From contig OY979728.1 in assembly GCA_963855995.1 (NCBI GenBank), positions 3,024,330 to 3,088,329 on the forward strand: a DNA stretch of 64,000 bases, read 5' to 3'. Positions 480-62,744 of the stretch are shown in pieces (position 1 is the first letter of the stretch; each line of letters starts with the position of its first letter). The position numbers were made by a program, and so were the translations under genes. Origin of the DNA: Muricea muricata. Lineage: Eukaryota > Cnidaria > Anthozoa > Malacalcyonacea > Plexauridae. Under the pieces are notes generated by a model. It was not told the origin of the DNA. It ran no database searches and worked only from the letters and a program-made list of their open reading frames with translations.

Positions 480-2624
480 CTTTAGCACCAGGAGCGCCAG
501 GATCACCATTGGGGCCAGGCATGCCTGGTTCACCATCGGATCCATGAAGACCATCGTCCCCACGTTCACCTCGATCCCCAGTTGCTCCTGGAACTCCCCT
601 TTCGCCTGTGTCCCCATCTTGACCGTTAGCTCCTTGTGGTCCTCTGGGTCCTTGAGGACCTTCTGGGCCGGGCTCACCGATGGGTCCAGCTGGACCTATT
701 GGACCACGTTCACCTGGAAAGAGTTAAAACTGTAATTAGCCAGTTATCTAGCTAGTAATTAGCTACTTAATAAATCACGTTAACTGTCCAATTGGTGCAC
801 TTGATTGATAGCTAGGACACAAACGTAGTTCCTACCTTTTATGAAAATGCTTATCTTGTAAATGTCATCATTTGACGGCTGAAAAAGTGTTGCTAGATTG
901 GCTAAATTAAAAAAATAAACAAAATTCAGGACAGTTTAATCACTATCTTGAACTATCATTTCCAGTGTCGGTAGTGCAGTCGTAAGCACAAGAAAATACA
1001 GGGTATTTTTTCACAGAGGCTTCTTCCAAATCCTACCACACATAGGTATAGTTTAAGGAATCCAATAAAATATGCTTTATTTAAATGTAGGAATGAACGC
1101 AATAGAAACAGTTTTATCCCGCACTGTGTTGCAAAATGGGATTCTCTGAATATTTCGTAAACTTACATGTCTGGAAGATAGTATAGTTTTGCATAATATA
1201 GACCTTTTTAACATTTGTATGGTGATTATGTACTTTTAACTGATTAGCATTATGTAATTTCAAGTTTTTCATATTGTTAATCTTAGATAGCAGTCTGCCA
1301 TTTGAAATTGTTAATAAATTCATTCACCACCTGATGAGACGATATAAAAAGAATACGACGTTTTGAGCGAAGCTCCTGCCATATTAGCTATACTGACTTC
1401 CAGACGAAAGACCTTCGCCCAAAATGTCGAATTCTGTTTATTACTTGAGCAGTACTACAAAACGATTCTTTCGTGCTAATTTTTCACTTTAAAAAGCTAC
1501 GTTTGAGAAGCTATATAAAGTGCTTTATCAAGCTATTTGAAATGCATATGTTATCAGCTTTAAAACACTTGGTTTCTTAAACCAGATACCGAAACACTAA
1601 TTTTCAAACACAACTTAATGAAATCGTGTTCGACAATGCAGGTTAAACCATAAAATTGTATTTAAAATTGCATACGGGAAGACTTCATCGAAATATATTG
1701 TTTTTCTAAAACACTGTGTGGGAATATGACAAGGCTGTCTTTGTTGATGTTGGCCTTCGCTTTTTAGGCAAAGATGTGACGCAAAAACAATATAAGTCGA
1801 AGTTTTTGGTAGCATTCAGATAAATTGTATATAATGTAATGAACAGGTTCTGAGAGAAAAGGTATACAATAAGCTTAAAACTCACCATCGAAGGCTGTTT
1901 TATGTGCATCTAAACAAAACAAAGAGGTTATTGTATTTAAGAAACGTCAATTAAAGATGCATGCCTGTTTCCTTATGGATCACGAATGCATTAAATTGAA
2001 ATAAACTACGAAAATGCTAATTAATGTACATCAATTCAATTTTGCACATTAGCAAAAAATCGACGTAACAAGTCCAAATTTGTTGAACATGTTGTATCAA
2101 GCGGAATTTAATTGGAGTTATTCATTTGAATAATATATTGTGGTCGACATAAACAACTAGAGCTTCTTAAAGTCTTAAAATACTGCCTTTTTGTGGCTCA
2201 TTCTTTAACTGAACATTCATATAGAGAGTTAATTTTTAATAGATTTAATTTTTAGAGAAAAAATGACGACAAACGTGTATTCGAGACTATACACCAACTA
2301 CAGTAAGACGTTGAGTTCAAGCAAGTGTAATCCGCCACAACAGACGTGTATTTTAAGACGACTACAAAAGTACAACAGTTTGAAGTTTACGCTAGCAAGA
2401 ATCTACCACGAGAAACGTATACTTCAAGACAACTAAACTATAAGACGTAAACCAATATCAAAACGCGAATACCTTTACTTAAATGCGTTAAAAGGCGACG
2501 AGAAACGTCAGTACTTTAACCACACGTGATAAGAATCTACTAGAATAAATATTAACGTAAGCTCCATACCTGTAATGCATGTAAGAGCGAAGACACAAAG
2601 TGCCAGCACGGATAGGGACGTCAT
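480..2624 (-). CDS. Gene A: secreted collagen-like protein, 5' part only
   Basis: Partial gene running off the left edge. Exon 1 (2624-2570, 55 nt) starts at an ATG and encodes an 18-residue signal peptide ([18 protein letters not shown]), ending ACA G before gtatgg. A probable 24-nt microexon (1909-1886) after tttgtttag encodes residues read DAHKTAFD across the junction. Exon (713-480, 234 nt) after ctctttccag encodes exactly 26 uninterrupted Gly-X-Y triplets and ends AAA G before gtgagc. All junctions are phase 1, so the Gly codon is split G|GN as in genes B and C. Skipping the microexon would also keep the frame. The 3' exons, expected to carry a cysteine-rich C-terminal domain by analogy with gene B, lie outside the window. 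Exon 1 length equals that of gene B exon 1, and the first collagen exon has the same 234 nt as gene B exon 3, so A and B look like recent tandem paralogues. The protein is probably an extracellular trimer. Confidence 0.75.
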
Positions 2625-4925: not shown

Positions 4926-4939
4926 AATTATAAGGTTGC

Positions 4940-5275
4940 ACAGAATCCACTGCTGAGTTAAGCATGGTTAGATCATGCAGAGGTAGTATATGTTCTGGAA
5001 TGTAAGGTACCTTAAAGTAATCTGATGTTGTACACAACTCATTATTGTGCTAAGCATGGTTAGGTCATTCAGAGGTTGTAAATGTTCTTGAATGTGACCT
5101 ATCTTAAAATGATCTGGTGTTGTACAGAACTCACTGCCGTGTTAAACATGGTTAGATCATACAGAGGTAGTACATGTTCTTGAATGCGAGCTTCTTAAAG
5201 TGATCTAATGTTGAACAGAAATCGTTGCTGAGTTAAGTTTGGTTAAATCATATAGAGGTACTACATGTTCTAAGT
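4940..5275 (+). repeat. 91-92-bp tandem repeat, array 1
   Basis: About 3.6 units, each with the block agcatggttagatcatgcag, agaggtagtacatgttct and tgatctgatgttgtacagaac. Unit starts near 4964, 5056, 5148 and 5239. Confidence 0.85.
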
Positions 5276-7106: not shown

Positions 7107-7360
7107 TTAACCTTCGAGAATCAATCGACAGCACATTCCTTTCGTGTGTGTGTGAGCGGAGGGACAATTACAATTACAGTTGCCGCCTTGGATGACCTTA
7201 TTCTGACAGGAGTAGCTACAGTAGCAGCCCATCATGCTGTAGCTTGAACCAGCGGGTAACGTGTTGCAGGTGACCACACCGCCTGCAGCCTCAACGGCGT
7301 GGCAAACCATTTCTTGATTTCTGCCTGGGTATCCTGGGTTGCCAGGATCGCCTATAGGAC
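7107..7360 (-). CDS. Gene B last exon: resistin-like domain
   Basis: Begins at ttgttacag|GT, completing a split Gly codon, with four Gly-X-Y triplets ([12 protein letters not shown] pattern) followed by the ten-cysteine domain. The first spacing, x11, equals that of human resistin; the core [17 protein letters not shown] follows its CxCxxxC..CxCxC..CC order. Collagen tail and cysteine domain share one exon of 254 nt, as in gene C. Confidence 0.85.
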
Positions 7361-10300
7361 CTGTAACAAAACGAGGCAAAGGTTAAAGGGATATCGCAAT
7401 TTATTTCATTTTTAGCTTAGCGACATTGTCCGCAACTAAGTTTTGAAATATTGAAGGACAATCCGCCGTCTTGGGAACCTCAGAACTCTTAGTAAGACGT
7501 CTTATAAAGACCACCTTGCTTGTGAAATGAAATTATGATAGAATTTTAAAACAAGATTGCGGATGGCTGTTGTCATTTGTCCTACAATATTTCAGAAACA
7601 AAGCATTTTAGACGATGAAGTCGACCCAGGCTATACATATAGAAGATGTACGTTTTTAGACACACAGTTCAGTAGGTGAACCTACCATCAGGTCCTGGGT
7701 TTCCATCAGAACCATCAACACCAGGATCACCACGAGGACCCCGAGGTCCAGGGAAACCAACCCTTCCCGGGGCACCCGCGTTTCCAGCATCACCGGTTGC
7801 CCCTGGGGCACCGTCCGAACCAGGTGTTCCTTGTGGGCCTTGGAGACCTCGCTCTCCGACGTTACCCTGGGGTCCAGCATCGCCAGGTTCACCGGTCGCG
7901 CCGCGTTCGCCACGCGGTCCGGCACTGCCTGGATCGCCATTTTCACCAGGTTTACCGGTTTGTCCTTTGGCCCCGTTGTTACCAGGATCGCCAATTGCTC
8001 CTACGAATACAACAGACATTGGTAAAGGTAATGAGTTTCAAGGAAGATTCTTGCGGATTAATGTAAGCTAGATTGAGTAATCGAGATCCTCTGTCTCCAA
8101 CAGGCTTTGCAAGCGGTTGTTTACAACAATGAAAGACAATAAACTGTATGGATTTTCTAAGGAACGAATCAGAAACAATGATAGTTTTTGTTTCACAGAG
8201 CTTGAACATTCACAAAGCCTGATCATTTGTGGTTGGTAACTTAGAGAAGAGACTCAAATCAAAACGTGTGATTTTTGGCTGTTGTAAATGTGGAAATTGC
8301 TGGTTTGTAAGAAAACCCACCGAACAGCCGTGGTAAATAGGGAAGAAGAGGGATGATTTACAACATACCAACAGATCCTTGAGGTCCTTTATCTCCTTTC
8401 TCTCCCTTGGCACCATCAACACCATTGTTGCCATCAGCTCCATCACTACCCCTGTCTCCTTGGTCACCCCTGTCTCCATCATCGCCGGGATCCCCCTGTG
8501 GACCAGGTCCGCCATCGGCACCAGGATTACCTGGAAGACCCTTTGCCCCCTGTGGACCTTGTGGACCTGAAATACAAACGAAACACGTCAAGTAAGAATG
8601 TCGCTTGTAGTTTGACACACGTGTTAAGCATGTTTAGATCATGCAGAGGTAAAACATGTTCTTGAATGTGAGCTATCTTAAAGTGTTGTGATGTTGTACA
8701 GAACTCACTGCTGATTTAGGCATGGTTAGATCATGAAATGAATTCTACGAGTAAAATAAGAAAATAAATTCTAAGAAATTTGAGCATACCTCGGTCACCA
8801 TCGTTTCCAGGATTTCCCTGGCCACCTCTGTCTCCTTTAAGGCCATCAGCACCATTGGCCCCATCGTTACCCGGATCCCCTCGAGTTCCTTTGTCACCTC
8901 GAGGTCCGGGATAACCCTTATCACCCTTGGGTCCGGTTGCTCCTACAACTCCCGGACTTCCAGTACTTCCCACTGGGCCTACATCACCTTTCTTGCCAAC
9001 TGGGCCATAGAGACCAGGCAATCCTACAAAGTACCAAGAAGCATTGTAAACCATGAGCACTTCTAGTCGTTCGGTCTTTATATTTTAGTTGATCTGACCT
9101 CGAGTAAAAGACCTGTATCTTATATCTTTTCTTTTCCTTTGTGAAACTTGCTGGAAATTGGTTTCACGTTCAGTAAAGTTACTTTAACACTATTACAAAT
9201 TTGGAACCAAAATAAGCCAGATTTCATGTGGAATTTGGAGTGATTTGGTTCGAAAAATGGACTTCTATTTGACAATTAGTTGAAGCATTTTCCGTTTTCC
9301 ATTTTTAATTCTCTAGCAAGGTTGAACTCTAGCCGTTACAGCAACAAATAACTTTGTCTTATGATATAAGATACCATTAAATCTAGGTATTGACTGGCTC
9401 TTTCATGTACAAGAATCTGATCTGCTACTTTGAGCATTTCATAAGTGGAATTAAACTTTAGATCGAGCTTTCTACCATATCAAAAATGGCTCTTAACGTA
9501 AACCTAACCCAAAGTCCTTTACTTTAAATTACGAACCCTAAAAGGGGACCAATTCGTGACGCAAGCGTATAGCGTTTTAATGGGATCACGAAGGGAAACT
9601 TTAGTAACAACATTAGAATACACAAACCTTTTATGGGGGGCTTGGGTCCCTTTGTCGGTAGGCTTGAGTCCCTCTGCTTTCCAGCCAAATGTCCGGCCCT
9701 TGGCGCCCCAACTACGAAGACATTGAAGCAAGAGTGAATTATTTTAAACAGGAACGTTACTTTGGCTTTATAGAAGAAATCCTGTCTTTCTTTACAACAG
9801 AACATTCACATAAACAATACAATGCCAATATTCTACATGAATTTATAATGATAAGTAACTCGACAAAAACATCGATTGAGAATGAAGCTCGTTCAGGGAT
9901 TACATGTATGAAACCAAAGTGCTAAATGGTATGTGGACTGTAACAGTTCGCGTACTGCGTTACACGTTTACAATACATATCCCTAATTTGAGCAAATGCT
10001 CTCAATTCGCAGTCGCTTTTACCCGATGACGAAATCTTCACATATAATTTTGAAGACTTTTTCAACATCGCATGAGACAAGTGATAATTTGGTGACAACT
10101 TCTAAGTTAGCAAAACTAAGTTGATGTATTTGATCTAATTCGTACATCGTGAATGCCCGCACTATTCGTAATCATGCCCACTTCAACAATGTATTTCATC
10201 ATTGACATTTAATACAAACCTTATAGTTACTAAAGTTAATGTTCAACAAAGCTGGGTATAAAAATCATCGTATACACACGGACATCTTGAAGATTTCTGT

Positions 10301-10488
10301 ACACGCGCAAAAAGTGATCGCGTGTACTCACTACGTTCATATCAGCCTGTGTCATGTACACAGACATCATGCACGCTTTGGAACATTAACTTTGTAATGA
10401 ACACTTCGTATAAAATGAGCAAGGTTTACTTACAGGTATGAAGCACAGCAAATGTACAGAAAAGTGCGAGGGCCAAATATGCCTTCAT
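7107..10488 (-). CDS. Gene B: collagen with resistin-like C-terminal domain (379 aa)
   Basis: Complete six-exon gene. Exons: 10488-10434 (signal peptide [18 protein letters not shown]), 9711-9628 (28-codon non-collagen linker), 9023-8790 (234 nt), 8566-8369 (198 nt), 8000-7686 (315 nt) and 7360-7107 (254 nt with TAA). The sum is 1140 nt. Every intron is phase 1 with GT..AG ends. The linker exon is required: splicing exon 1 straight to the collagen exon would create TGA. Residues 47-308 are an unbroken Gly-X-Y helix of 87 triplets with several RGD and KGD/KGE triplets. Residues 315-375 hold ten cysteines spaced C-x11-C-x13-C-x-C-x3-C-x9-C-x-C-x-C-x10-C-C followed by RL, the resistin/RELM arrangement. 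The product should be a secreted, disulphide-capped collagen trimer. In vertebrates RELMs are secreted trimeric cytokine-like proteins with a coiled-coil stalk, so a collagen stalk is a different architecture. Function here (matrix or humoral defence collagen) is inference. The linker exon is the least certain part. Confidence 0.85.
8617..8740 (+). repeat. 91-92-bp tandem repeat, array 2 (about 1.3 units)
   Basis: Same unit as 4940-5275, located in gene B intron 3 between the 234-nt and 198-nt collagen exons. Confidence 0.8.
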
Positions 10489-10534
10489 GTTGAACGATCT
10501 GTCAGAGAATAACATCGTCGCGTTCAAGGATTAT

Positions 10535-10542
10535 CTTTTATA
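10535..10542 (-). promoter_or_regulatory. TATA box of gene B
   Basis: TATAAAAG on the minus strand, 47 bp before the gene B start codon, matching the gene A box in sequence and distance. Confidence 0.65.
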
Positions 10543-11089
10543 CTGCGTTTCCCGGCGTGGGAGGGGCTAAAATCCGTCAAATTTTTGCATATTTCATCCG
10601 GTCAGAATGTTTCCAAGCGATATAGTGCCTCGTTGACCGCTCTCACAAGCCGAGTGTCTTTTTCGCACCAAAACCAATATCCAAAGGTCGAAAAGCAGGC
10701 AGTGCTGGAATGTTTTCGCGCAAACACAGATGCTAATTTCGGTCAGGGGTTAATAGCATTTTTCATCGGCTCAAACGTTGCCAGGTGAAGCTCGAGGCAA
10801 AGAGACAAAGAGCCGAAGTTTCTTTCTCGATTGAAAAAAATCGAATTTTCAATCAGTTCTGCTCGGTGTGTTTTGCATATACATACGTATAGAAATGATT
10901 TTAATTAGTTTTTCTCACGGAGGCTATTTTTGGCCTGTTTTGTTCCCACGTCAGTGAAGGTAGACCTACTCAACTATGCGAAGGGGCGCTATTCAAAATT
11001 GGAACTGGATATCTATGATTAGATGTGACAATGTTGCAAAATATCACAGTGTTCTGAATGTAACAGTGTTGCAAAATCATATTGCACGG

Positions 11090-11400
11090 TTATTGCACAA
11101 TTTGCATGATTTAACCGTGTTCAATTCGGATAACTAGTGCAACATCAGATCACATTAAGATAGCTTAGATTCACGAACATGTACTACCTCTGCATGACTT
11201 AACCATGCTTAACTCTGCAGTGAGTTCTGTACAACGTCAGATCACTTTAAGATAGCTCACATTCCAGAACATGTACTACCTCTGTATGATCTAACCATGC
11301 TTAACTCAGCAGCGAGTCCTGTACAACACCACATTCAAGAACATATACCACAACTGTATCAGAGAACATCTATCCAACAGTAAGTCGTGTACAGCAATAA
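11090..11400 (-). repeat. 91-92-bp tandem repeat, array 3, inverted
   Basis: About three units in the opposite orientation (catgtactacctctgcatga, ttaaccatgcttaactctgc), in the region between divergent genes B and C. Confidence 0.8.
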
Positions 11401-12220
11401 ACTTAAGCTCATCTTTGCTCTACATCAGAGAGAACGCAGGAAGAGTTAAGACATTCTTCAAGCCATGGTTCTTTGACTCGAGAGCCTATGAAGTCCTATC
11501 ACGGGTAACACGTATAGCCACAAATACCTCTCTTACGAAAAGGGTATGAGGAGTAAACGTATGTGAACCACTATAGATCAAGTACAACTGGAATTCGTTT
11601 TGGACATTGTCAACACATTTGTTTCTATACTTGTACTATGTGTGTATATTTTGTACAATGTATAAACATGTCACTTTTGAAAAAAAAAATGTTACATGCA
11701 TGTGTTATATTGTCCATGGACAATTAGCACCCTTGAGATAATCAATACATTATTATAGGATTAAAAGAAACAATTATGTACCTACGATTAGATTACGCTA
11801 ATTAAACTCACGAATGGAATTTTGCCTGGGGAAAATTTTCCAAAGAATAAACCAAATTTAGGTCATTTTTCACCGACCTCTAAAGCGAGGGGGAACATTT
11901 GCTGCTGATAAAAATTGTTAAATTGAAGTACCAAGTACTTTAGACTTAGGAGTAGTTCAATGAGAAGTGACAAATGCAACTGATACCACCGCTAATGGGC
12001 GATATTCTGTCAAGTTTACAGTACAATAATTGAAAATACTCTGCAAATTGTGTACATAAAATTTATGCTGGATGATTGTGCTTGAAATCTAAGCGTTTGT
12101 CTTGGCATTTAAAAGTATCGATATAAGAATTTAAAACAACAAAAGTGCATTTGAAATCTCATTTCCAACTCTCATGTCGATTCCTTTACGGAAAGCTGCG
12201 TCGTTTCTTTGTCATTGGTT

Positions 12221-12645
12221 CTAATAGACAATTTGCATAATAGACTAACATTCGATCTAGGCAAAAAGAACAGAATCTTTTACTACAGCTAGAAAGAGGA
12301 TCATACGATTAGTAGAATTGCAGAGTTTGGTGGCGAAATGTGGTAAAATATGGAAAATATGGCATTGCAAAGTTTGCAAATTTTGTATATATTTGTATTA
12401 CGCGCGGAAAAAGTTACCATTTTCGCGGCAATTTTAGCTCAAAAATGGTAACTTTTTCCGCGCGTAATACAAATATATATAAAATTTGCAAACTTCGCAG
12501 AGCTATATTTTCCGTATTTTACAACATTTCGCCACCAAACTTTGCAGTTTTACTAATTTTGAGATGCTCTTGTTAACTGTAGTAAAATATTTCGTTCTTT
12601 CTGCCTACTACGACCTTTAGTCTATTATGCAAATTGTCCATTACT
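12221..12645. repeat. Foldback element family F, copy 2
   Basis: Outer ends taatagacaatttgcataa / ttatgcaaattgtccatta, inner arms sharing gcaaagtttgcaaattttgtat and a palindromic AAAAAGTTACCATTTT centre. The outer ends differ from copies 3-5, so it is a subfamily. Confidence 0.78.
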
Positions 12646-13199
12646 ATATCCTATACAGTAATAAGATTACATAACATATATGCAAAAGAATACATCGACA
12701 AAAAGTTAAACAAATTAAATTATTTTTTCGAGGCAACTGCTATTTATTCGGCTGTTTGTAACATTTCTATCGAATGGATGTCAATTATTCCAATCAATGC
12801 ATGAATGTTCAAGAAGAACTAACACCCGAATACAGCCTGTTTTTATGCGATATTCACCCACGACAAATTAATTTAGCAACTTTCTACACCATTTTTTAAA
12901 TCAAATTACCACTTGAGGTAACCCATAACAAATTAGTGTTTTTCTTTGCGCTGAGAAAAACTCGCCGAGAAAAAATCGAACGAGCGAAATCGTGCAAGAG
13001 CCTTTGATTTCGTTACGATTCTTTTTGGGCCGGATGTAACTAAGTATATGTACGTGTGAGGGGTCAAGAGCCATTGAAATTGCCCTCAGATACGGATATT
13101 TTTAATGGGAATTTTCAAAGCTGAGGGCGGAGCTATTGAAAATCCGCTTCAACAAAGACGAGCTGAAAAAGAGCAAAGCCCACGTGACACCGCTGTAAG

Positions 13200-13208
13200 T
13201 ATATATAG
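13200..13208 (+). promoter_or_regulatory. TATA box of gene C
   Basis: TATATATAG ends 53 bp before the gene C ATG, the same spacing class as the gene A and B boxes. Confidence 0.6.
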
Positions 13209-13260
13209 TGAGTATTTGAGTTGGCAAGCACAATTCACAGGCGGTATTGATCGACATAAC

Positions 13261-16200
13261 ATGGCACACTGTGTTGCAACCCTGCTCGCCCTCTGGGCGA
13301 CTGCCTTTATTGGTGCATGTAAGTAGCTTAACGTTTTTAGTATAATAAAAGTATTAATGTAACATTTAATGTGGCGTTAGAGTTAAAAACTTCATCGTTA
13401 ACCAAGTGAGATACGTTTTGAAATGAATTCTCGCAATACCTTTAAATAATCTCGCCAGCCAAAGTATTTAAACTAATGGCGTGATTAGGGAAGATTTTCT
13501 GTAGTGATTACAAATATCCTAGAGAAGATCTCTTAACGAATTCCACCGACGTTTTGTAGACAAGAATCTGCGTCAAAGAACTTGCACGAATATACGACTC
13601 GTTATTGTTTACGTGCGCTGACTTAAAAGTACGATACGATTTCATGTTCAACGAATACCGCAACATTTTCTAATCGTATTCAAGTTATTTTGAACACTGT
13701 CAAATTATATTCTAGACTTCGTTGAAATATGTGCATGAATACTTAGGACTGCATTATCTTAAAGTGTTATTGCCACAGTTCAACATACGAGGCTTTTCCT
13801 TGAGTGGATATTGGTAGATTTTACATCGATTCAATTCATACAACTAAATATTTAGTATCTAGAGCTAATGGAGTAATAATCAATTGTACATGAATATAAA
13901 CTTGATTTCACATCGATTGTACTTCACACTGCATCGCATTATTGTTATAATCGATTGTATAATCGATTGTACTTCACACTGCATCGCATTATTGTTATAA
14001 TATAACAATAATGCGATGCAGTGTGAAGTACAATCGATGTGAAATCAAGTTTATATTTCATGTACAATTGATTATTTCGTATTCAACAAATGTATTAAAG
14101 TTTATATCTCCGTTACAAATATGAGCTATACATATTTAATGTCAAGATGTGCCTACATTGGGTTAAGGCCCTGTCACGCGGTACAATTTGTCTTGCAACT
14201 TGCAACGCAATTCTACTCTTAAGAGATGTAAATTTGTGACAAATGTTTGGTATGTTAAAAATATATTAACAAACTGTAATGGAAACTTGTATTTGTCAAT
14301 TTTACATCTCTCAAGGGTAGAGTTGCATAGCAAGTTGCAAGAAAAATTCTACCGCGTGACAGGGCCTTTACATTGACTATCAACACAATGTATTAAGCAT
14401 TTAAACACTCGACCCCACGACTGCACGATATCGATTACCAGCCCAGTTTTATAACATATATTATCTGTATGTTTTAGATGCCATCACACCTTTAGATCGC
14501 GTGTCCCAGGATGTCACCACGTACCCCTACCATATAGGTAAGGTTTTCTTTTGATGTAACAGAACAGACAAGGCAATTCGCTTGTTTAGAGCCCAAATTA
14601 GCGCTTGCCAAGGTTAAATATACTCAGCAGTTCTTATTAGCCTATTTCTGCACTTCTTTCGGTTTCACAAGGCTCAGAAATCCAGAACCTAGTTTATTAT
14701 GCCAGCTGACTCTCAACTGTTCCTTGTTGTGTGGTAAACAAATAACTGTCTTTTGTAATAGAAGGTTGAATTTAAGTACTACCGCCATTGTCTCTCACGG
14801 CCTTAATACGATTGGTTAAACGGGTTGATTGAAGGCCGCTGATTGGCTCATGACAGCGGTAACGAAAATTTGAAACTCCAAATTATCGCTGGCTCCAATC
14901 TCTTTGCTTTACTTGGTTACACCTTCATGTAACAAATTCAGAAAATATGATTGGCTGAGCACCTAGGGTAGGGAATTGGATTAGGGACTGATTTATTATG
15001 ATGATGCATCAAATATCATCATCGATAATCTATAATTGTTCAATCAAAACAATCAAAGCTTGATGGAGAATAGTGAGATTTTCAAAAAAAAAATGGAAAG
15101 GTAATAAGGCGCTCTCATAACTGGACCATCACTGGATGAAGTGGAGAACAGCAAGATTTTAAAAACAATGAAAAGATACTGGAACATTCTCATCGCTGAA
15201 TCAAAAAATGGAGAACAGTGAGTCTTTCAAAACCATGAAAAGACAATGGAACATTCTGATCACTGGATCGAGACTGTATGCCATGCATGGCGCACAACAG
15301 GGCTGTCGCAACAACAACAATAATACCAAGTGACACCAGCTGTTAAACGAGGCACATTTTGAAGTTTGTGTATACGAATGCTTTCCAAACGAATGCGATA
15401 AAAAAGACAGTCTCTGTTGAATTATCACTTTTGGAATTTCTGTCGTAATGGACCATTCCTCTATTAGACAAACTTTTGAATTCGGAAAATCAATTGGCAC
15501 AGCTGGAAAGAGCATTCTACATTTAATACAATTGTGAAGTTTGGTTGCAAAATATTGTAAAATGTGGAAAATATAGTCCTGTAAAGTTTGCGAATTTTGT
15601 ATACTTTTGTATTACGCACGGAAAAGTGTTACCACTATGTGGAAATGTGGTAACGCTTTTTTCCGCGCAATACAAAAGTATACAAAATTTGCAAACTTTA
15701 CATTACTATATTTTCGACATTTTTCAATATTTTACAACCAAACTGCACATTTCCACTAAATTTAGGAAGCTCTTTCCAGCTGTGCTAAAATTGTTTTTGA
15801 ATTTAAAAGGTTGTCTAATTGGGGAATGGTCCATTGATTCCTGTTGTGGCTTAGTCAGTTATTTCCATACATCAGATCGAAATCCCCCCCCCCCCCTACA
15901 CTTTTCATGCAAGTTTTAATGACTGACCGATATTGCTTGGCAGCTCGTGTTTCGTACTTCGCTTAGTAACCGAATAAATATAAGTCAACCGAAAAACAGC
16001 CGCAAAACAACACGAACGAAGTTTCCCACAGTGGGCGTTTGAGACGATGTATAAAAAGCACATTTATTGCCATAAATGCTCTCTATAATACCGTAATAGT
16101 TGGTTTGTCAGAAAATTAAAACACCGCGATGCTTCCGCCGCGAGCATTAAGTACAAAATTTTAGGAAGCGGTTTTAAAAAAGGTAATGCAATGAAATCCA

Positions 16201-19200
16201 TCGCGATAAACAAGAATATAGAAAAACATGTTTTCAAGTCTTGAGGCAATAAGTATAATATCGCTTATTGGAGCAAGGAAATAGTTTATATCTGTAGGGT
16301 AATTTAGGAATGCGCGAGTGACTTTAATGCGTCTTTAAGTATAAGTATATGTTATGTACAACAGTTTCACAAACCTTTCCATTTGCGAACGAGTGGTAGA
16401 ATCTTTAATATCTGCAAGAAAAAGCATTGAGATTGATGAAGATTGATAAAGTAGCTTCAGTGTTTGATGGAATTTTGCCCCCAATAATCTCCCAATGACC
16501 TTGTGTCCACATTCGTGTCAACATGGCACATGGAATACGTATACGTATGTCTTTGTCGAGAATATGTTTCACGAGTCCATCTTAAAGATGCTATGAAGTT
16601 CTTGATGTAACGATGCTTTGTTTACAGTTTAAATTTCTATATTTGTAAAATGTGATAGACTGAATATCAATATCTTCTTGTTTGCAATGATGATAAATGA
16701 ATATAAACCAGACTTTCGATTCGGAAATCTTCCGAAAGATGTGAAATTTAGGCAATGTTTACATCTGGAGGAGCCCTTCCCCCTTGTTATGAGCTGAATC
16801 GATGCGCACAAAGAACTTTAAAGCGTCTTTAAATTTTTGGGCATAAAACTTAGAAGAATAAACAAGTAAAAACAACGCCCCCTTAGAACACAACCAGCAA
16901 AGCATAGTTAACAATATGTCAAAGGTTTAACAGTTACAGTGAAACACAATAGAATACCCCGTACACAAAACCACAAAAAGATTTCTCAAGACAACCTAAC
17001 TCGAACCCCCTAATGGAGAAATAGTCATACCTTAAGGTTAAAAGTGCTTGGCACTATTCAGGGTATTCCCCTCCAGGAATTAAATTTCAAAGTGCAGCGA
17101 TAGGCAAGTGACAGCACAGTGACAAAATCGATTCTTGCAACGATAAATGAAATTATGTGCAATGATAAAAAACACTATTCTGTCACATTCTATCGCTTGT
17201 TACCAACTATAATACCCAAAGAAACTAGTTAACATTTTCATGTTCTTGTTAATCTTTTTTTTTACGAAAAAAACTAAACTATGAAGTATCAAAATAACCC
17301 TAACTGTAAAATCCTTTAGATTTCAAGACATGCCCCATCTCTATCGACATTGCCTACTTGATCGATGGTTCGGACAGTATCTCTGACGGAGATTACGAGC
17401 TAGAGAAAACCGTTGTCAAAGTTATGGCCTATTTCTTCGGCGTCATGAAACTGGGAACGCATAATGGCGTAGTGAATTATGGTCATGATGCAACGACTGA
17501 GATTAAATTCTTGGACCATGAAACCTTCATTTCATTCAGGGATGCTGTGAAGCCATTAAGGAAGGTCGGCGGTGGGACGCGTATCGATCGAGCTTTGGAG
17601 GAAGCCCACGATAACCTCTTCATGGGAGGCGGTGGTGCACGTGCGGCACGTTCTATCCCCAAAATTGCCGTGAGTTTTCACTCGTCTATCATTTACACAG
17701 CGAAAAATGCAACAGTTGTAACATTTCTATTGACATCTTGCAACAAATCAACAAGCCGATATCAGGATGCGTTCGTTGTTGACGCAAATCCGTTGAAAGT
17801 TGTCATTTCACTCGTTTGCACAATAGTTACAACATGTCAAAACAGCTTGCGGCAGGCCTGTGGATAACACGTTTTGCAAAAGCCAATATCGGATACGTTC
17901 GCATGGCTTGTGACGACAAACCAGTTACAAGTCGTCAACAGACTCGTTGCAAGTTGATTGCTAAAACTGTCATCCACAGGCTTGCCGCTTTGTTTCAACA
18001 TGCAGCAGGAGTCATCAGATAGACGACAAGTTGCAAGTGCAGATTTTAACAGACATGTTTGCCACTTGACGAAATTGACAAGTTTGTTGAAACGTATTGA
18101 TTAGTTGCCACAAGCTGATACAATTGACAACTCATCAAAAGTGAGACAATCCATAGTGAGGCTTGTTTGCGAAAAGCTCGTAAACTACGCCGGAAGCTAC
18201 GATTGCGATATATAGTTGAATTGTTGATTTAGCCATGTCGATGGTGAAGCATAAAAAATGTTCGATCAGCTTTACTGTGGGCGCCAGCCAATGCGGCGCT
18301 CACGAGAGGTTGGTTGCAAGTCAAGATAGCTCATGTCGTGCCAAAGAAAATTGGAACGGATAACTTGTTGCACATCCACGGGCACAACTTGCCTACAAAA
18401 CTTGCCAGAAGAAAACTAAACCTTCCTATATGCTCTTTCTAGGTTGTTTTCACCGACGGTGTTAGCGGCGGTCAATCGTTGGACGCTGCAGTTCAACAGC
18501 TTGTCAACAAAGGTGTTATTGTGTTCGCCGTCGGAGTTGGTCCAAATGTGGACATTAATGCATTGAGATTGCTCACCCCTCGTCACGACCTGGTCTACAC
18601 AGCCAACGACTTCTTAGATCTGTATATCAAAGCTGGATTCATTGCCAGGCAGATTTGTCAACACGCGCGTGAGTATGACTTTGGAAATCGCAATTATTTC
18701 GCGATGGGGATGGTGGTAGCGGTGATGTTGAATTAGTCGATGGTATATTGACGATGATTGTAGTCACGGAGTCTGTGATTGCTAACACCATCACCACATC
18801 ACCATCGCTCCACCACAATCATAACGACAGCATTACATTGACATCGAAAGGAACTAGATTTAGGTCAGGCATATCTTTCAGCTGGCCCGATGTGCATATA
18901 AACACAAAGTACAAAAAAAATCATCATCTAATGAAAGATACATAAACAAAAAGACTACATTGAAACAAAGGATACTTAGTGCTTAGGCATATTTTTCGAA
19001 TTGCCTGGTGTTGTTATAACACTACAAGTGTTGAGTAACACAACAAGTGCATGCACAGCATAAAGATACTTAAAACTTATGATTACACTTTAGATATACA
19101 TAGATGGAACTAGACTTCAGAACAGAACTAGACAGAACTGACCAGACATATTTTTGAGCCTGCCAAGTGTGGATATAAACTCAGAGTAACACCAGAAACA

Positions 19201-22200
19201 TCATTTTCACCTGAAAACACCAAGATAATAAAATCCCCATCATTAACTTTGGCCGGGTTAACCTTGGCCAAATTCAAGTCTAAACAATTGTATGTCCACT
19301 TTTATACAGAGAACCGTGGTGCAATCGGTCCAAAGGGCCCGCAAGGTCCAGACGGCGTGCCTGGTCCACAGGGACCAATTGGTGAGCCTGGCCGACCTGG
19401 AAACCGGGGAACTAGAGGTGGAGTTGGACCCAAGGGATTCAGGGGAAGCAAAGGCCCGACTGGGGAACCTGGAACACCCGGCACACCAGGAGCTGATGGC
19501 AACCCAGGACGACAAGGAGCGAAGGGCCCTAAAGGACAACAAGGAGGACCAGGTAGGATATATGAGTACATTGAACAACATCAATAGCTGGACCAACAGG
19601 ATACATAAGGACATGTAGTAGACGCATATTCCTGCCAGCATTTCCCCAAAGAACTTTTGTCCGCTTTTTTTTTGCCTACGAAATGCAACAAGCTATTTTT
19701 GTTAAACGTTTTATGTGTTAGTCTGAGGACAAATTTAGGGCTACTGAATGCAAATTCAAACCAAACATCGTCTTGTCAAACAATGGGGAGTAAACGTTGC
19801 GTTGATCATTATTGCCGTGGGATTGACTACCTCACGGGCGTTCTTTGTGGGTGCCGTCAATATTTTTGGCATGCGGTTGCTCATACAAATTCGTTATTTC
19901 TTCGTAAATAATCGTAAGACTATTCTCACTCACTGGGACTGTATCTACTTCACCAAATTTAGCTAAAGAGGGAGCGCGTAGCGCGACAATCATTACTCGC
20001 CCTTCGGGCTCGCGCTTTTGCTAAATTTGGTGAAGTAGATACAGTCCCAGTGAGTGAGAATAGTCTTACGATTATTTACGAAGAAATAACGAATTTGTAT
20101 GAGCAACCGCATGCCAAAAATATTGACGTCACCCACAAAGAACGCCCGTGAGGTAGTCAATCCCTATTGCCGTTATGTTGCAGGTGCTGAGGGATTACGA
20201 GGACAAACCGGTGACCCGGGTACCAACGGTGATCCAGGACCACGAGGACCCAAGGGAAATCCAGGACCTCTTGGATCAAAAGGCGATGCAGGTAACAACG
20301 CAATCTCATTACTTTACAAAGAGGGAAAAAAAACGATGCTGGAAAAATTTCCGCGTAATTTAGGGCATCGGACCATACCCTATTAGACAAAATTTTTAAT
20401 TCGGAAGATCTATTGGCACAGCTGGAAAGAACATCCTAAATTTAGTACAATTGTCCAGTTTGGTTTCAAAATATTGTAAAATGTCAAAAATATAGTTATG
20501 TAAAGTTTGCGAATTTTGTATATATTTGTATCACGTGTGGAAACGCGTTACCACTATGTAGAAATGTGGTAACGCTTGTTCCCGCCAAATACAAAAGTGT
20601 AAAAAATTCGCAAACTTTACATTCGACGTTTTACAAATATTTTGCAACCAAACTTCACAATTTCACTAAAATTAGGAAGCTCTTTCCAACTGCGCTAATT
20701 TGTTTTCGAACTCAAAAGTTTGTCCAATTGGGAAATGGTCCATTAAGCACAGTTTTAAGTAGTAGTTAAGTAAGATATCAGCAGGAGCGTAACTAGAGGT
20801 TTATTTGGAGGGAATGAATATTCATGTGTTCATTAGGACACTAATATAAAAAAGTACGAGATTTAACTAGGAAATTACAATTAGCTTCACAAATAAAGCA
20901 ACCTGCAGAAAACTTAGCCTGACCCAGACGAATATATTTGCTATTCTCTGGTTACAGTATGCTTGACGATATTCGAAATGTTACCTTGAGGATGTATGTA
21001 TGGCGCCAGCAAGGTCTAATGGGCTCAAACCATTTTTTTTTGCAGGAGAGAATGGAGCCAACGGAAACCCAGGCAGGAACGGTCTCGCAGGAGCAAAGGG
21101 ACGTACTGGTGATGCAGGCAACCGAGGAGAACAGGGTCCCCCTGGTGCAGACCAAGCTAATGGTGCACCCGGCGCCAAGGGTCAACCAGGTCTGCGTGGA
21201 CCACAAGGGCAGCCAGGACCAACCGGTGCGCCCGGACCTAAAGGAGATCAAGGCCCAAGAGGAGAGAAGGGTGACCGTGGAGAACAGGGTGATCCAGGCT
21301 ACCCGGGACAAAATGGTGAGCCAGGTGAAGCTGGTGACCCCGGTGATGATGGTTACCGCGGACCTCGGGGACCAACCGGGCCACCCGGAGCCAAAGGCGA
21401 ACAGGGTAGAGCTGGTATCAATGGCATCGATGGCTTCGAGGGACCCAGAGGTGAGATGTAATTCCATTGTCTGAAGCTTCATTCATCTGAGCGGTGCGTT
21501 TTACCTAACGCATCCTGAACAAAATGTTGGCATCGTCGGTTGAGGTAGCCCTAAGCGGCCCCTCCGAAAGGGGTGCTACCGAAGGGGCTGACTGGACTTT
21601 GTTCATCTTCTACCGTTGTTATTGGTTTTAATTTGGCTGTTTCGCACACCATATTAATACTTGTGCTCGTTGCTTACACTTACAGTATCATTCTTAGCCT
21701 TTTCACTGAACTTTATCACGCTATTTTTCAATTCTTTCTCAGTGTGCTAAAAAACTGGCACTTGCACCATCTGCACTCCTCATCCGCCTCGAGTCATGCA
21801 CGAGTTGCATGATAATGCCCCAGCATCTGACTGGATCCTATTAAGCCGCACCCCCCCGAATTTACCCCACTCTCCGATTCAGGTAGTGTTGATGAGTTCA
21901 CCGCGACTTCACCTACTTTGCTAACTTGAAACCCTATATTCATTAGGTCCGCGAGGCCGTGACGGTCCCGACGGCAGCGACGCCAACCAAAGCATCGCCT
22001 GTATCTACCTGCAATCACCAACTGGAGAACTCACGATGTCATGCAACAACCCATCCTACACCGCCACCGATTGTGGGTGCAGCCGGGGCTGCGGGGAGTG
22101 GAGGATCTCGAATGACGGTCAGACCTGTTCCTGCCAATGCAATACTTATGTTCCATCCACTTTTTACTCCGTGGGCGTCAATTGTTGCAGACTTCAATAG
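13261..22200 (+). CDS. Gene C: VWA-collagen-resistin-like domain protein (567 aa)
   Basis: Complete eight-exon gene: 13261-13318 (signal peptide [19 protein letters not shown]), 14478-14537 (20-residue linker), 17320-17669 and 18443-18668 (von Willebrand A domain), 19310-19552, 20184-20291 and 21046-21450 (collagen; 243, 108 and 405 nt, all multiples of 9), and 21947-22200 (254 nt with TAG). Total 1704 nt. Introns are phase 1 except the phase-0 intron inside the VWA domain, just before VVFTDG. VWA residues about 44-231 keep the MIDAS: D55-G-S57-D-S59, T126 in GGGTRID and D161 in FTDG, so metal-dependent ligand binding is plausible. Collagen spans about 235-493 with one break, where a QAN triplet replaces Gly-X-Y. 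The C-terminal ten cysteines are spaced C-x13-C-x9-C-x-C-x3-C-x11-C-x-C-x-C-x14-C-C and end RLQ; the CGEW..CSCQC core is very like resistin. It is probably a secreted adhesive trimer. It is transcribed divergently from gene B, 2.8 kb apart. Confidence 0.88.
13875..14080. repeat. Long perfect-looking palindrome in gene C intron 1
   Basis: Arms acttgatttcacatcgattg..gcatcgcattattgttata and their complement meet near 14000; the left arm has an extra partial duplication of the cgattgtacttcacactgc block. Confidence 0.8.
14166..14370. mobile_element. MITE-like element
   Basis: Inverted ends ggccctgtcacgcggtacaa / ctaccgcgtgacagggcc, followed inside by cttgcaacttgcaa / ttgcaag. About 205 bp, no coding capacity. 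Lies in gene C intron 1, about 100 bp before exon 2. Confidence 0.75.
15448..15834. repeat. Foldback element family F, copy 3
   Basis: Ends aatggaccattcc / ggaatggtccatt, subterminal ctggaaagag / ctctttccag, and a centre of gttaccactatgtgg / ccacatagtggtaac type. Lies in gene C intron 2. No coding capacity, so it is a MITE-like, non-autonomous element. Confidence 0.82.
17740..18140. repeat. Diverged CTTG/CAAG-rich dispersed repeat in gene C intron 3
   Basis: Fills much of the intron that splits the VWA domain; related in style (cttgtggataac, gcaagttg, gcagcagg) to 23895-24185 and 44800-45125, but the alignment is loose. Confidence 0.4.
19795..20168. repeat. Foldback element ending 16 bp before gene C exon 6
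   Basis: Arms of about 150 bp: gattgactacctcacgggcg..cttcaccaaatttagc and the complement gctaaatttggtgaag..cgcccgtgaggtagtcaatc, with a loop near 19970-20017 holding gcgcgtagcgcg. The splice acceptor of exon 6 (20183) is immediately beyond it. Confidence 0.85.
20368..20746. repeat. Foldback element family F, copy 4
   Basis: Same ends and centre as copy 3 (cggaccatac..aatggtccat). It sits in gene C intron 6, between two collagen exons. Confidence 0.8.
21947..22200 (+). CDS. Gene C last exon: resistin-like domain
   Basis: Follows tattcattag. It starts with a few Gly-X-Y triplets ([10 protein letters not shown]) and then ten cysteines: [16 protein letters not shown] and NCCRLQ are the recognisable blocks. 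Same exon length, same entry phase and same cysteine order as the last exon of gene B, but with two longer loops, so the two genes have diverged well beyond a fresh duplication. Confidence 0.87.
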
Positions 22201-23410: not shown

Positions 23411-23804
23411 TAATGGACCATTCCCCAATTAGACAAACTCTTAAATTCGTAAACAATTTTAGCACAGTTGGAAAGAGCTTCCTAAATTTAGTGAAATTGT
23501 GAAGTTTGGTTGCAAAATATTGTAAACTGTTGAAAATATAGTAATGTAAAGTTTGCGAATTTTGTATACTTTTGTATTACGCGGGAAAAAGCGTTACCAC
23601 ATTTCCACATAGTGGTAACGCTTTTCCGTGCGTAATACAAAAGTATACAAAATTCGCCAACTTTACAGGACTGTATTTTCCACTGACATTTTACAATATT
23701 TCGCAACCAAACGTGACAATTGTAAGAAATTTAGGATGCTCTTTCCAGCTGTGCTAATTGATTTTCCGAATTCAAAAGTTTGTTGAATAGGGGAATGGTC
23801 CATT
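23411..23804. repeat. Foldback element family F, copy 5
   Basis: Ends taatggaccattccc / gggaatggtccatta, with a near-perfect central palindrome gcgttaccacatttccac / ccacatagtggtaacgc. Best-preserved copy, about 394 bp. Confidence 0.83.
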
Positions 23805-32902: not shown

Positions 32903-32908
32903 TATAAA
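32903..32908 (+). promoter_or_regulatory. TATA box upstream of the first GPCR
   Basis: TATAAA 39 bp before the proposed ATG. It would place transcription start only a few bases before the start codon, so an alternative upstream promoter cannot be excluded. Confidence 0.4.
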
Positions 32909-32946
32909 TTTTGGCGCATTTTCGACCAGCTACTCGAGGCGCCGAC

Positions 32947-34011
32947 ATGGCTTCGACGATTACGTCGCTGTGGCAAAACGGCAGCGAATCCTTGGTGGAA
33001 GAATGCGAGAACGGAGTGTACTACCTAAACAGGTCGCCGACTGGAGTGTACTATTATAACTATATGATAAACATCGTCTTTACTGCAATCACAACTTCGG
33101 TTGGCTGCGCTGCAAATCTCTTGGTCATCGCAGCCTACTTCAAAGCGCTTCGTCGACACGAGTTTAATACCACGCTTCTGGCGTACCTCGCCGTCGCCGA
33201 TATCTTGATTACCGGCTTGGTTCAGCCGTTGATGATCAGTCGCCTGACGATGGAACTATTCGATCGACACTATTGTCCGTACTGGCTTGTCATTCGACGG
33301 CTCTTTGAGTTCAGCGTGCCCGTCTCGTTTCTCTCCGTTGGGCTCATAACTTACGAGCGTTACCAAGCGCTCTTCTCGCCTGTGAAGTACCGGAGCAGCG
33401 CGTTGAGACGTCGGATCAAGATAGCAATGGTGGGAATATGGCTGTTTGCGCTCGTCACGACGTGTTTACGATTCTTCGACTTCTTCGTGGCAATCTACTA
33501 TTTTCTCGCGCTCTTCATCATAATCGCCTTGGTCGTCGCGAATTCTATTATTTATATTAAGATCGGGAAGATGGCTTCGGTGTATACCAAAGATCGACGC
33601 GCGACAGCCGAGAAGCTCAGCGACGCACGAAGCTCGAGAAAAATCCTCGCGAAGGACAAGCGAAGCACACGGACGCTATTCTATATCTTCCTTAGTCTGA
33701 TTATATGCTATCTGCCGATGCTTGGAGCGATTCTTTACACGATAATCGAGGGCCAAGAGAAGTCCCAATCCATGCAATTCCTTTTCGGATACCTCCCGTG
33801 GGCCGACGCGTTTGCGTTTTTAAATTCGACTCTAGATCCGTTCATATACTGCTTGCGCAATCCCAGGTTAAAGAACGCGGTTGTCGATTTCGTCTGCCGT
33901 CGTGGGTACAGGAAAAGGGACTCGTGTGCCGAGGCGGGAGCTAAAAATTCATTGATGCTACAGAACAGCAGTTCCGATAAGAAATGTCCGAATGATTCGC
34001 GGGCTTCGTGA
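32947..34011 (+). CDS. Rhodopsin-class (class A) GPCR, intronless, 354 aa
   Basis: Seven hydrophobic segments with class A marks: N57 in TM1 (AANLLV), D85 in TM2 (LAVAD), C110 at the head of TM3, ERY at 137-139, W165 in TM4, CYLP at 254-257 in TM6 and DPFIY at 297-301 in TM7. The second extracellular loop is only about 6-8 residues and has no cysteine, so the usual TM3-ECL2 disulphide cannot form; short ECL2 is known in melanocortin-type and many cnidarian receptors. The N-terminus has NGS as a possible glycosylation site. The ATG at 32947 was chosen as the first in-frame ATG; a TATAAA at 32903-32908 lies about 40 bp upstream, so an intronless gene with a very short leader is likely. Ligand unknown. 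It is a paralogue of the receptor at 47179. Confidence 0.9.
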   Translation: MASTITSLWQNGSESLVEECENGVYYLNRSPTGVYYYNYMINIVFTAITTSVGCAANLLVIAAYFKALRRHEFNTTLLAYLAVADILITGLVQPLMISRLTMELFDRHYCPYWLVIRRLFEFSVPVSFLSVGLITYERYQALFSPVKYRSSALRRRIKIAMVGIWLFALVTTCLRFFDFFVAIYYFLALFIIIALVVANSIIYIKIGKMASVYTKDRRATAEKLSDARSSRKILAKDKRSTRTLFYIFLSLIICYLPMLGAILYTIIEGQEKSQSMQFLFGYLPWADAFAFLNSTLDPFIYCLRNPRLKNAVVDFVCRRGYRKRDSCAEAGAKNSLMLQNSSSDKKCPNDSRAS

Positions 34012-41689: not shown

Positions 41690-42310
41690 ACTATAGGCTC
41701 TAACGAAGAAGGACAGAGCAATCTAGTTTAGCTTCAGCTCTTGTGTAGTAACACCGGATCATTTATATCCGTTCGTGTATCTCTAGGAAAAACAACTGAG
41801 AGCTGATATAGGTATCCAGTATTAATAAAGTTAGTTTATAGTTCAGGTTTTCTTCTTCATGTAGAAACACTGGATCAAAGTAAGAGATGATCCTTACTAG
41901 ATCTGGAAGAACAGTTTAGAGTTTATAGAGCTATCCACTATAGATAAAGTTAGTTTAGTTTAGGTTTCCACTTGTAGAAACACTGGATCAATACGAGATA
42001 ATACTTACTGGATCTTCAGGAAGAACAGTTTAGAACTGATAGAGCCATCCACTATAGATTAAGTTAGTTTAGTTTAGGTTTCCACTTGTAGAAACACTGG
42101 ACCAATAAGAGATAATACTTACTGGACCTTCAGGAAGAAAAGTTTAGAGCTGATAGAGCTGTACACTATAGATAAAGTTAGTTTAGTTTAGGTTTCCACT
42201 TGTAGAAACATTGGATCAATGAGAGATGATCCTCACTGGACCTCTAGGAAGCTATCTAACGTAGATAAGATAGCTAAGCTTAATAGGTTTCCTTCTGTAG
42301 TAACACAGGA
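41690..42310 (+). repeat. 114-bp satellite S, array 1
   Basis: About four to five units: cactggatcaataagagatg, ggaagaacagtttagaactg, agttagtttagtttaggttt. Same family at 55195-55915 and 62745-63480. Confidence 0.85.
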
Positions 42311-45125: not shown

Positions 45126-47178
45126 TAATATTAATCAACATTTTCATCAGCAAAATGATTATTAAAAAGATTAATAGGATTCTGTACAGCCACAAAGCAT
45201 AACGAGAAATCTACTCGTATATATTTATTGTCCTGTGTTCTGCATGAAAAGGCGGATATGATTTGAAGTTTACACAAGGACAATTACGTTACTATTTGAC
45301 CAGCTGCAAATTTTCTTCAAACTCTGACAAGCACCTCAGTTTGTTATTAAAATTCTATTCATATGGCTAATTATTATAAAGGATTGTTTCCAAAAGCTGG
45401 GCTAACATGTTTTTTTCACTATGTAAATATAATTATATCTTCGTGTTACCTAATCCATTCTACGAATTATCAGAACGTAGATAACTAAAAATGCAAGATA
45501 CACTAATCCGATAGTATGAATGGGATAGCAACATAAGTGCATACATCCCAAATCAAAACGTTATGGAATTTACATAAATCTAAGCTCGTCAAAACAAGGA
45601 ATTAATGCAGTAATTAGTTTTGAAGAAGATGGGAAGTAGCTTTGCTATATCCTAAACAAAGGGAAAGCACATATTCTACGTACGCGCGAGACACGATAAA
45701 ATGTAAATTCGGTACAGCTAAAGATTAGATGTAGAACAAAGCTAAAAGTCGTGAGTGTAATTTGATAACTTCAGGTTCCTTTTAAAACTCCCTTATAATA
45801 AAACGCTAGAGATTTTCGATGAAAGTTGATGCTTTTAGTTATAGTTTTACTGAAGTAAAACACAGTCAAAACACTGATTCCTAGATTTTCATGCATGTGA
45901 GGCTCAAAAATGTGCCCTGTATATATGCATGTACCTGTGACAACAACACGACTCTCGCGGATTTCAAACAAGAATAAGATAAGCAACATAACGAAGAATA
46001 GCTTCTCCTTACGGAGACAAAGATGCAGTGAAATAATTTTCTTTCGAAATTGCTGTTGTTCTACTAGAGCTTATATGCTCGTAGTATTATGCTTGTGCTT
46101 CTGTCGATGCTGATGTCGCACACTTCGCTGCATTTCTTTGTTTTGTTTGACTCTGTGCTAGTGAGGACCACGCTTAAATTAGAAATGATACTTGCATGAT
46201 ATTGCAGATGAAAGTTTTGTGAAATATTCATACATACATAGCAAACCTTGTCATGACATGTTTTTTAATTAATTAATATCAACAGCCAACTCGATTTTGC
46301 CATATCATATCAGCGCATAATAGAACCGCCACTCGGTCGCCGGCAGCTGTGGAACGGAACAAAAAGACTTTAATCTTCTTGTAAGCGCAAAATAAACACG
46401 AGCGCAGTAATAAGACGATGAACATTGGTAAGAACTCCAAATAAGTCAACACACACGCAACATAGTGTCTTCGCTGCAGCAAAGTAGCAAAAGATTGATA
46501 CAAGCTGCAAAAGTTGAACGAAGCGTACCGGACTAACTGTAAACATTAGAATCTAAGAACTTGGCGTTTTTTAAGGATTGAATCAATGGTGATCACGTAA
46601 TATGCAAAAACAACACAAAAAGTAGCTTACCAAACACAAAGTAGCTAATCCGCCAATGTGTACACACACGGATACGAAGGATAACGATTTCTTAAAGTGT
46701 TGTACACCTAGAATTTGGATCAAGGACTCTTCAGTTTGGAGTAGAATAACTTTAGACACGGTGAAACAACACAAGATTATCGGAAGGGCATTTTGGACCA
46801 AGCACTGAACGATTAAAGGAAAAGATTTTCGAATATCGATTTGGCAAACGAAGCGAGTGGAAACAGCAACTGCAGAAAGCCTAATCGACGTGGCGTCTTT
46901 TTGAGCACAATACTACTAAGCGTTTATTAACAGGAACGAAGGTACAGCAATCTAGTACCGAAGCCATGCTTTTCTAACAGCAACAAAGGAAAACGGTTGT
47001 TGGAAAGAAATAGATAACCTAAAGTTTGCAGCATTCTTTTACGGACCTTTTCTACACTACCAGTTAAAAGAAACCACGGAACCATGCAATTAAATTGTGG
47101 ACAAAAGATGACGAGATAAATTCTTGCAATCACTCACAATCAAGAACGACAATAAACCTGCACCAGCATTGCACAGCA
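45126..47178. other. Intergenic upstream of the second GPCR, no gene seen
   Basis: No frame with recognisable domain and no clear TATA box close to 47179, so a 5' non-coding exon of the GPCR could lie here. Confidence 0.4.
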
Positions 47179-62610: not shown

Positions 62611-62744
62611 CTAAAATAGAAAGATGACACATTTATACTATATGGTCCTGGCTGCTGAATTACATCGTAAAATGTCAAGCTAACTATCCTTTTGTAAGAG
62701 CTTTTTTATCGATCATGAGTTGCTATTGCAAGAAAACGTAACTA

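Follow-up and report, generated by a model that had tools for sequence, protein, structure and literature searches.

The window, that is, the whole 64-kb stretch of DNA analysed, carries the collagen genes B and C and part of a third collagen gene, A, located directly beside B. The gene B model comprises six coding exons on the minus strand (10488 to 7107) and encodes 379 residues, and that of gene C comprises eight coding exons on the plus strand (13261 to 22200) and encodes 567 residues. Exon borders in both genes were picked by eye, on frame and splice consensus; every intron of the two models is of the GT-AG type and the frame is open throughout. Of gene A (minus strand), the part at 480-2624 falls within the window; one more stalk exon and the head are located just beyond, the latter approximately 2.8-3.1 kb outside. 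The features are as follows:

480..713, minus strand: gene A stalk exon, 234 bases (six-frame reading, inferred model)
836..901, minus strand: gene A linker exon (inferred model, on frame and splice sites)
2570..2624, minus strand: gene A first coding exon, signal-peptide-like (inferred model)
7107..7360, minus strand: gene B last exon, with the end of the Gly-X-Y stalk, the ten-cysteine resistin-type head and the stop codon (pattern scan, Pfam, splice model)
7686..8000, minus strand: gene B stalk exon, 315 bases (by-eye splice model)
8369..8566, minus strand: gene B stalk exon, 198 bases (by-eye splice model)
8790..9023, minus strand: gene B stalk exon, 234 bases (by-eye splice model)
9628..9711, minus strand: gene B linker exon (by-eye splice model)
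10434..10488, minus strand: gene B first coding exon, signal-peptide-like (by-eye splice model)
13261..13318, plus strand: gene C first coding exon, signal-peptide-like by eye (splice model)
14478..14537, plus strand: gene C short linker exon (splice model)
17320..17669, plus strand: gene C exon, first part of the VWA domain with DGSDS (splice model, Pfam)
18443..18668, plus strand: gene C exon, second part of the VWA domain (splice model, Pfam)
19310..19552, plus strand: gene C stalk exon, 243 bases (splice model)
20184..20291, plus strand: gene C stalk exon, 108 bases (splice model)
21046..21450, plus strand: gene C stalk exon, 405 bases (splice model)
21947..22200, plus strand: gene C last exon, with the end of the stalk, the ten-cysteine resistin-type head and the stop codon (pattern scan, Pfam, splice model)

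The gene B product begins with a signal-peptide-like sequence, followed by a short linker, 88 unbroken Gly-X-Y triplets and the head (C1 to CC: 7128-7304, minus strand). The gene C product contains a VWA domain (PF00092; 99.9 bits on the full-length protein), in which DGSDS agrees with the DxSxS metal-site motif, and a stalk of 50 triplets, one imperfect triplet and a further 36 triplets, after which comes the head (C1 to CC: 22000-22188, plus strand). The full-length products of all three genes match the Pfam collagen family (PF01391; e-values: 7.1e-44 for B, 1.1e-42 for A and 6.9e-42 for C). An Rfam scan of the 64-kb window found nothing. The window also contains a single-exon GPCR gene, the product of which is 84% identical to a protein of the octocoral Paramuricea clavata, the sole organism-named entry among the 17 matches listed; by this one gene the assembly is most likely that of an octocoral, in agreement with the invertebrate of the initial annotation.

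The initial annotation described B and C as Gly-X-Y genes within 7107..22200 which both end in ten cysteines in the order C..C..CxCx3C..CxCxC..CC, and the spliced models bear this out. When all six frames of the window were scanned with a loose form of the pattern, exactly two places were hit, the ends of B and C, and the pattern was absent from 100 hexamer-block shuffles of the window. The finer details of that description can likewise be read from the sequence, in that the x11 first loop is preserved in B and CGEW..CSCQC in C, and the two heads both have CCRL at their end. The resistin spacing quoted there is also right, with the RELM-beta row in our profile alignment reading 11,8,1,3,10,1,1,9,0; the spacing is 11,13,1,3,9,1,1,10,0 in gene B and 13,9,1,3,11,1,1,14,0 in gene C.

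The 453 Mb assembly containing the window was searched with the Pfam Resistin profile (PF06954; curated cutoff: 25 bits), which scored over its cutoff at three loci, namely gene C and two further genes, D (contig C4) and E (contig C13). Gene E is located approximately 1.9 Mb from the window and is adjoined by a sixth gene, F; both A and F were recognised by reading the neighbourhoods of known members. The count of six is a lower bound. All six genes encode a signal-peptide-like start (by eye), a Gly-X-Y stalk and a head, with C1 of the head 1-6 residues after the end of the last triplet in 6/6 genes and with protein lengths of 219 to 567 residues, every one of them with a collagen stalk. The VWA domain occurs only in C among the modelled family genes. 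Collagen contributed to the recognition of A, B and F; for C, D and E, which were picked up through the head profile and nothing else, a collagen stalk likewise accompanies the head in 3/3 genes. The ten-cysteine order is present in four of the six genes (A, B, C and D), and thus in both B and C, while the E and F heads have eight cysteines and depart from it. The spacing is 11,9,1,3,10,1,1,17,0 in gene D, and the gene A head departs from the resistin spacing in its last loop only (11,8,1,3,10,1,1,15,0).

Pfam by itself gives a borderline answer on the identity of these heads. The Resistin match anticipated in the initial annotation is obtained for the isolated last exon of C (29.9 bits), while that of B falls short of the cutoff (23.6 bits), and as isolated heads D (31.2 bits) and E (28.7 bits) are over the cutoff, A (17.5 bits) is under it and F is unmatched. 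The assessment as borderline follows from the full-length proteins, where the scores fall to 24.5 bits (C) and 18.9 bits (B), both under the cutoff. The only other Pfam family returned for the B and C last exons was BTBD8_C (C; e-value: 0.66), far below its cutoff. Among ten shuffles of the C head in which the cysteines were kept, none matched Pfam Resistin and two matched other Pfam families (e-values: 0.0069 and 0.016); as shuffled heads reach such values, the Pfam e-value of the A head (0.0061) means nothing alone.

A coral-only profile was built from the six heads A to F with no vertebrate row and was compared against 177,635 distinct PDB sequences. Its top match was RELM-beta (1rh7; e-value: 7.6e-11; 45.5 bits), followed by two resistin entries (1rfx, e-value: 3.4e-8; 1rgx, e-value: 5.8e-8); these three were the sole PDB matches below an e-value of 1, the next standing at 1.8. 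Since D and E had first been found by means of the Pfam Resistin profile, the comparison was rerun with A, B and C only, and RELM-beta was again reached (e-value: 8.6e-7; 32.4 bits; next match: 0.064), with the resistin entries absent from the matches listed for this profile.

These profiles also bear on the alternative that the head is an unrelated cysteine-rich knot which has converged on the resistin spacing. The domain is short, A, B and F are under the Pfam cutoff, and the predicted models of the heads are of low confidence, all of which would suit convergence. Cysteine-only controls, in which the non-cysteine residues were shuffled within each of the six heads to give three sets, show moreover that the cysteine positions alone rank RELM-beta first, weakly, in two of the three shuffled profiles. 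The corresponding RELM-beta scores are, however, 19.4 bits (e-value: 0.0094), 12.9 bits (e-value: 1.3) and no match, against 45.5 bits for the real profile, although the shuffled scores are somewhat lowered by poorer alignment (100, 86 and 110 columns, versus 86 for the real heads). The cysteine frame alone thus points weakly to RELM, with the other residues adding at least 26 bits. Together with the RELM-beta match of the profile built from A, B and C alone, this makes convergence very unlikely in our judgement. Judged by its sequence, the head is a member of the resistin family and the whole protein is not a RELM. The central claim of the initial annotation, that the heads are resistin-type, is thus supported by the coral-only profiles with their controls and, at a borderline level, by Pfam.

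Structure prediction, by which the same annotation had proposed comparing the heads with resistin, gave a mixed outcome. The model of the C head (pLDDT: 61) has resistin as its best Foldseek match by e-value (1rgx; probability: 0.89; e-value: 0.3), which weakly backs a resistin-type fold. The B head model is poor; resistin and RELM entries make up its top three Foldseek matches with a probability of only about 0.1, and VIA-align does not prefer resistin for it. A further indication comes from the eight-cysteine heads. The disulphide bonds of resistin pair C1-C10, C2-C9, C3-C6, C4-C7 and C5-C8. In gene E, C4 is replaced by Gly and C7 by Ser with the spacing kept, a joint loss that is consistent with the resistin pairing; as two losses among ten cysteines are expected to fall on one of the five bonds with a chance of 1/9, it is supportive rather than decisive. 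Gene F may have lost either C3 or C4.

The combination of a collagen with a terminal cysteine domain in a cnidarian also brings to mind minicollagens or another nematocyst-type cysteine domain, and a better match to such a family was the outcome that the initial annotation had set against a resistin assignment. No such family was matched in the Pfam scans, although Pfam may hold no model for one, and the stalks of 33-92 triplets contrast with those of minicollagens, which are far shorter and accompanied by a six-cysteine pattern. We regard this origin of the head as scarcely credible. A C1q-type head was also considered and set aside, with no C1q match for full-length B and C (Pfam; e-value up to 1) or for A (e-value up to 0.01).

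We therefore consider it likely that this octocoral genome encodes at least six secreted collagens, each with a C-terminal, disulphide-rich beta head of resistin type that would serve as a putative trimerising cap. By analogy with C1q, it is plausible that the head trimerises the stem. It would then represent the C-terminal noncollagenous trimerising domain, which would bring three chains into register so that the triple helix could zip from the C-terminus, after which the trimeric head may act as a ligand-binding knob on a rod. With a collagen rise of 0.286 nm per residue, the stalks of A, B and C (88 triplets) would form a rod of approximately 75 nm, and the VWA domain of chain C may provide a metal-dependent adhesion module at its other end. 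C1q, the collectins and collagens VIII and X likewise have a collagen stem leading directly into a C-terminal beta head. The C-terminal domain of PCSK9 differs in this respect, its modules being carried on one protease-related chain without collagen.

The partnership of the chains was considered from the stalks of the three clustered genes. These contain 88 (A), 88 (B) and 87 (C, with one imperfect triplet) triplets, the distance from the first Gly to C1 of the head amounts to 268, 268 and 267 residues, and the stalk exons sum to 234+513, 234+513 and 243+513 bases, respectively. The identity at X and Y positions among them is, however, only 0.13-0.17, where shuffled triplets give 0.12; no pair but A-B exceeds this background, and that slightly (reached by 40/1000 shuffles). 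A recent duplication, as might be read from the similarity of the stalks, was rejected on this near-background identity. That the length has been kept while the X/Y sequence has been lost suggests that A, B and C may be neighbouring chains of a single heterotrimer of the C1q kind, in which the three resistin-type heads would all differ and one VWA domain would be present. C1q is itself encoded by three clustered genes, which the A/B/C cluster with its near-equal stalks resembles, although the head here is not a C1q domain. The members outside the cluster also differ in triplet number (D 33, with one interruption; E 92; F 74). Inherited length with rare indels would, however, give the same picture, A-B identity is slightly above background and the stalks of E and F, which are also neighbours, are of unequal length. 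We thus hold this narrower form of the proposal to be a genuine possibility, if a somewhat improbable one. The formation of homotrimers by each gene, with equal lengths in A, B and C inherited from tandem duplication, is in our view close to an even prospect; the tandem cluster with its common exon length sums and the differing stalks of the other members would be expected under it, while X/Y positions that are nearly saturated beside a length that is not suggest a constraint on length.

Compared with the RELMs, the A to D heads share the ten-cysteine C-terminal arrangement, in which the order is identical and the spacing almost so, but the last loop is x10-x17 rather than the x9 of RELM-beta, and E and F have eight cysteines. 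The RELM proteins have a length of approximately 110 residues according to the consulted sections of Hu et al. 2015 (PMC4467842), compared to 219 to 567 residues here, where chain C also has a VWA domain. The helical coiled-coil tail of the RELMs contrasts with the collagen helix of 33-92 triplets in the octocoral genes; in the portion consulted of a further study (PMC4474570), resistin is described as forming hexamers and probably trimers, with an oligomerising coiled-coil stem N-terminal to the head. The statement in the initial annotation that the domain is best known from vertebrates fits this literature. A cnidarian resistin domain had, however, already been tabulated, Pfam Resistin being listed in Table 2 of Ying et al. 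2018 (PMC6214176) as present in both sea anemone species studied and not in corals. The consulted part of that paper gives a table row with no architecture, collagen or function, whereas at least six octocoral genes are described here. A collagen-resistin fusion, its gene cluster or resistin in octocorals was not found in the open-licence literature. The collagen fusion, the gene cluster and the occurrence in an octocoral appear to be new to that literature, while the cnidarian Pfam Resistin domain was already known.

Within the vertebrates, the consulted sections of Hu et al. 2015 (PMC4467842) report resistin genes in 84 of 116 species, with presence in mammals, non-avian reptiles, one amphibian and the coelacanth and absence from birds, 17 ray-finned fish, one cartilaginous fish and one jawless fish, and caution that the searches were perhaps of low sensitivity; that paper was found to make no mention of invertebrates or non-vertebrates, of amphioxus (Branchiostoma), tunicates or sea urchins, or of collagen. 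The sturgeon was added to the carriers by a later review (PMC10043431, as far as consulted). On account of this patchy survey distribution and the later addition, the origin of the resistin hormone family had been open. When our own searches were extended to 14 control genomes, the Pfam Resistin profile (e-value up to 10) gave matches in two of them, none over the cutoff. Four weak genome matches (L013, L016, L018 and L020) were read in six frames and are taken as chance, as neither a collagen stalk nor a ten-cysteine frame was found in them. A protein database search with the C head alone, in a database that includes at least one octocoral protein and where intron-split genes are perhaps poorly predicted, found no relative, and a search with the full C protein returned four candidates, none significant, which does not speak for the absence of relatives.

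A recent transfer into the octocoral, or contamination, is unlikely, as six diverged, multi-exon genes occur in one assembly. The sequences suggest that the hormone fold is far older than its usual description from vertebrates implies, and it may first have capped collagen. Tentatively, and as something on balance doubtful, we propose that the resistin domain dates back to the cnidarian-bilaterian ancestor or earlier, where it would have begun as a collagen-trimerising cap, that the octocoral cluster would encode the chains of a heterotrimer resembling C1q, whose three different resistin heads and VWA foot would take part in matrix or innate recognition, and that the vertebrate resistins would be stripped-down survivors in which the collagen stem was swapped for a helical coiled coil. 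Such a swap would explain why vertebrate resistins form trimers and possess a stem. As a possible alternative to this descent, the domain may have passed horizontally between an early vertebrate and a cnidarian. If the proposed descent is true, the collagen-capping cnidarian heads would place the origin of the resistin family much earlier and would provide a structural reason for its plan of a stem plus a trimeric head, with an ancestral role that may have been in matrix or recognition rather than in metabolism.

A third collagen-resistin gene, gene A, is present in addition to genes B and C of the initial annotation, and the cysteine spacing in its head is exactly that of resistin as far as the last loop. 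Two adjacent family members, located on the same contig outside the window, have heads with eight cysteines each, and in one gene of this pair both the fourth and seventh of the ten head cysteines (C4 and C7) are missing.

480-2624, minus strand, continuing upstream of the window on contig G000:C13: gene A, collagen-resistin gene (head region, L005)
G000:C13, about 5.01-5.02 Mb, mutually opposite orientation: two adjacent family members (L002/L009 and L010)
4935-5271 and 11140-11328, opposite orientation to each other: two 92-base tandem repeat arrays
15447-15835, 20713-20744 and 23412-23804: repeated element with inverted ends (AATGGACCATTCC...)
32908-34011: intronless rhodopsin-type GPCR
47068-48942: intronless rhodopsin-type GPCR frame
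41785-42251, 55344-55900 and 62740-63476: three 114-base tandem repeat arrays

Gene B is flanked on each side by one of the 92-base arrays, which are similar in sequence. The end sequence of the repeated element in the gene C region has five matches against zero expected. The element is MITE-like, with two copies within gene C introns and one downstream of this gene.

The GPCR at 32908-34011 shares 84% identity with a Paramuricea clavata protein. The frame at 47068-48942 contains a long insertion composed of degenerate tandem repeats, probably in the third inner loop. The three 114-base arrays look like one common tandem repeat, with the array at 62740-63476 in opposite orientation to the other two.
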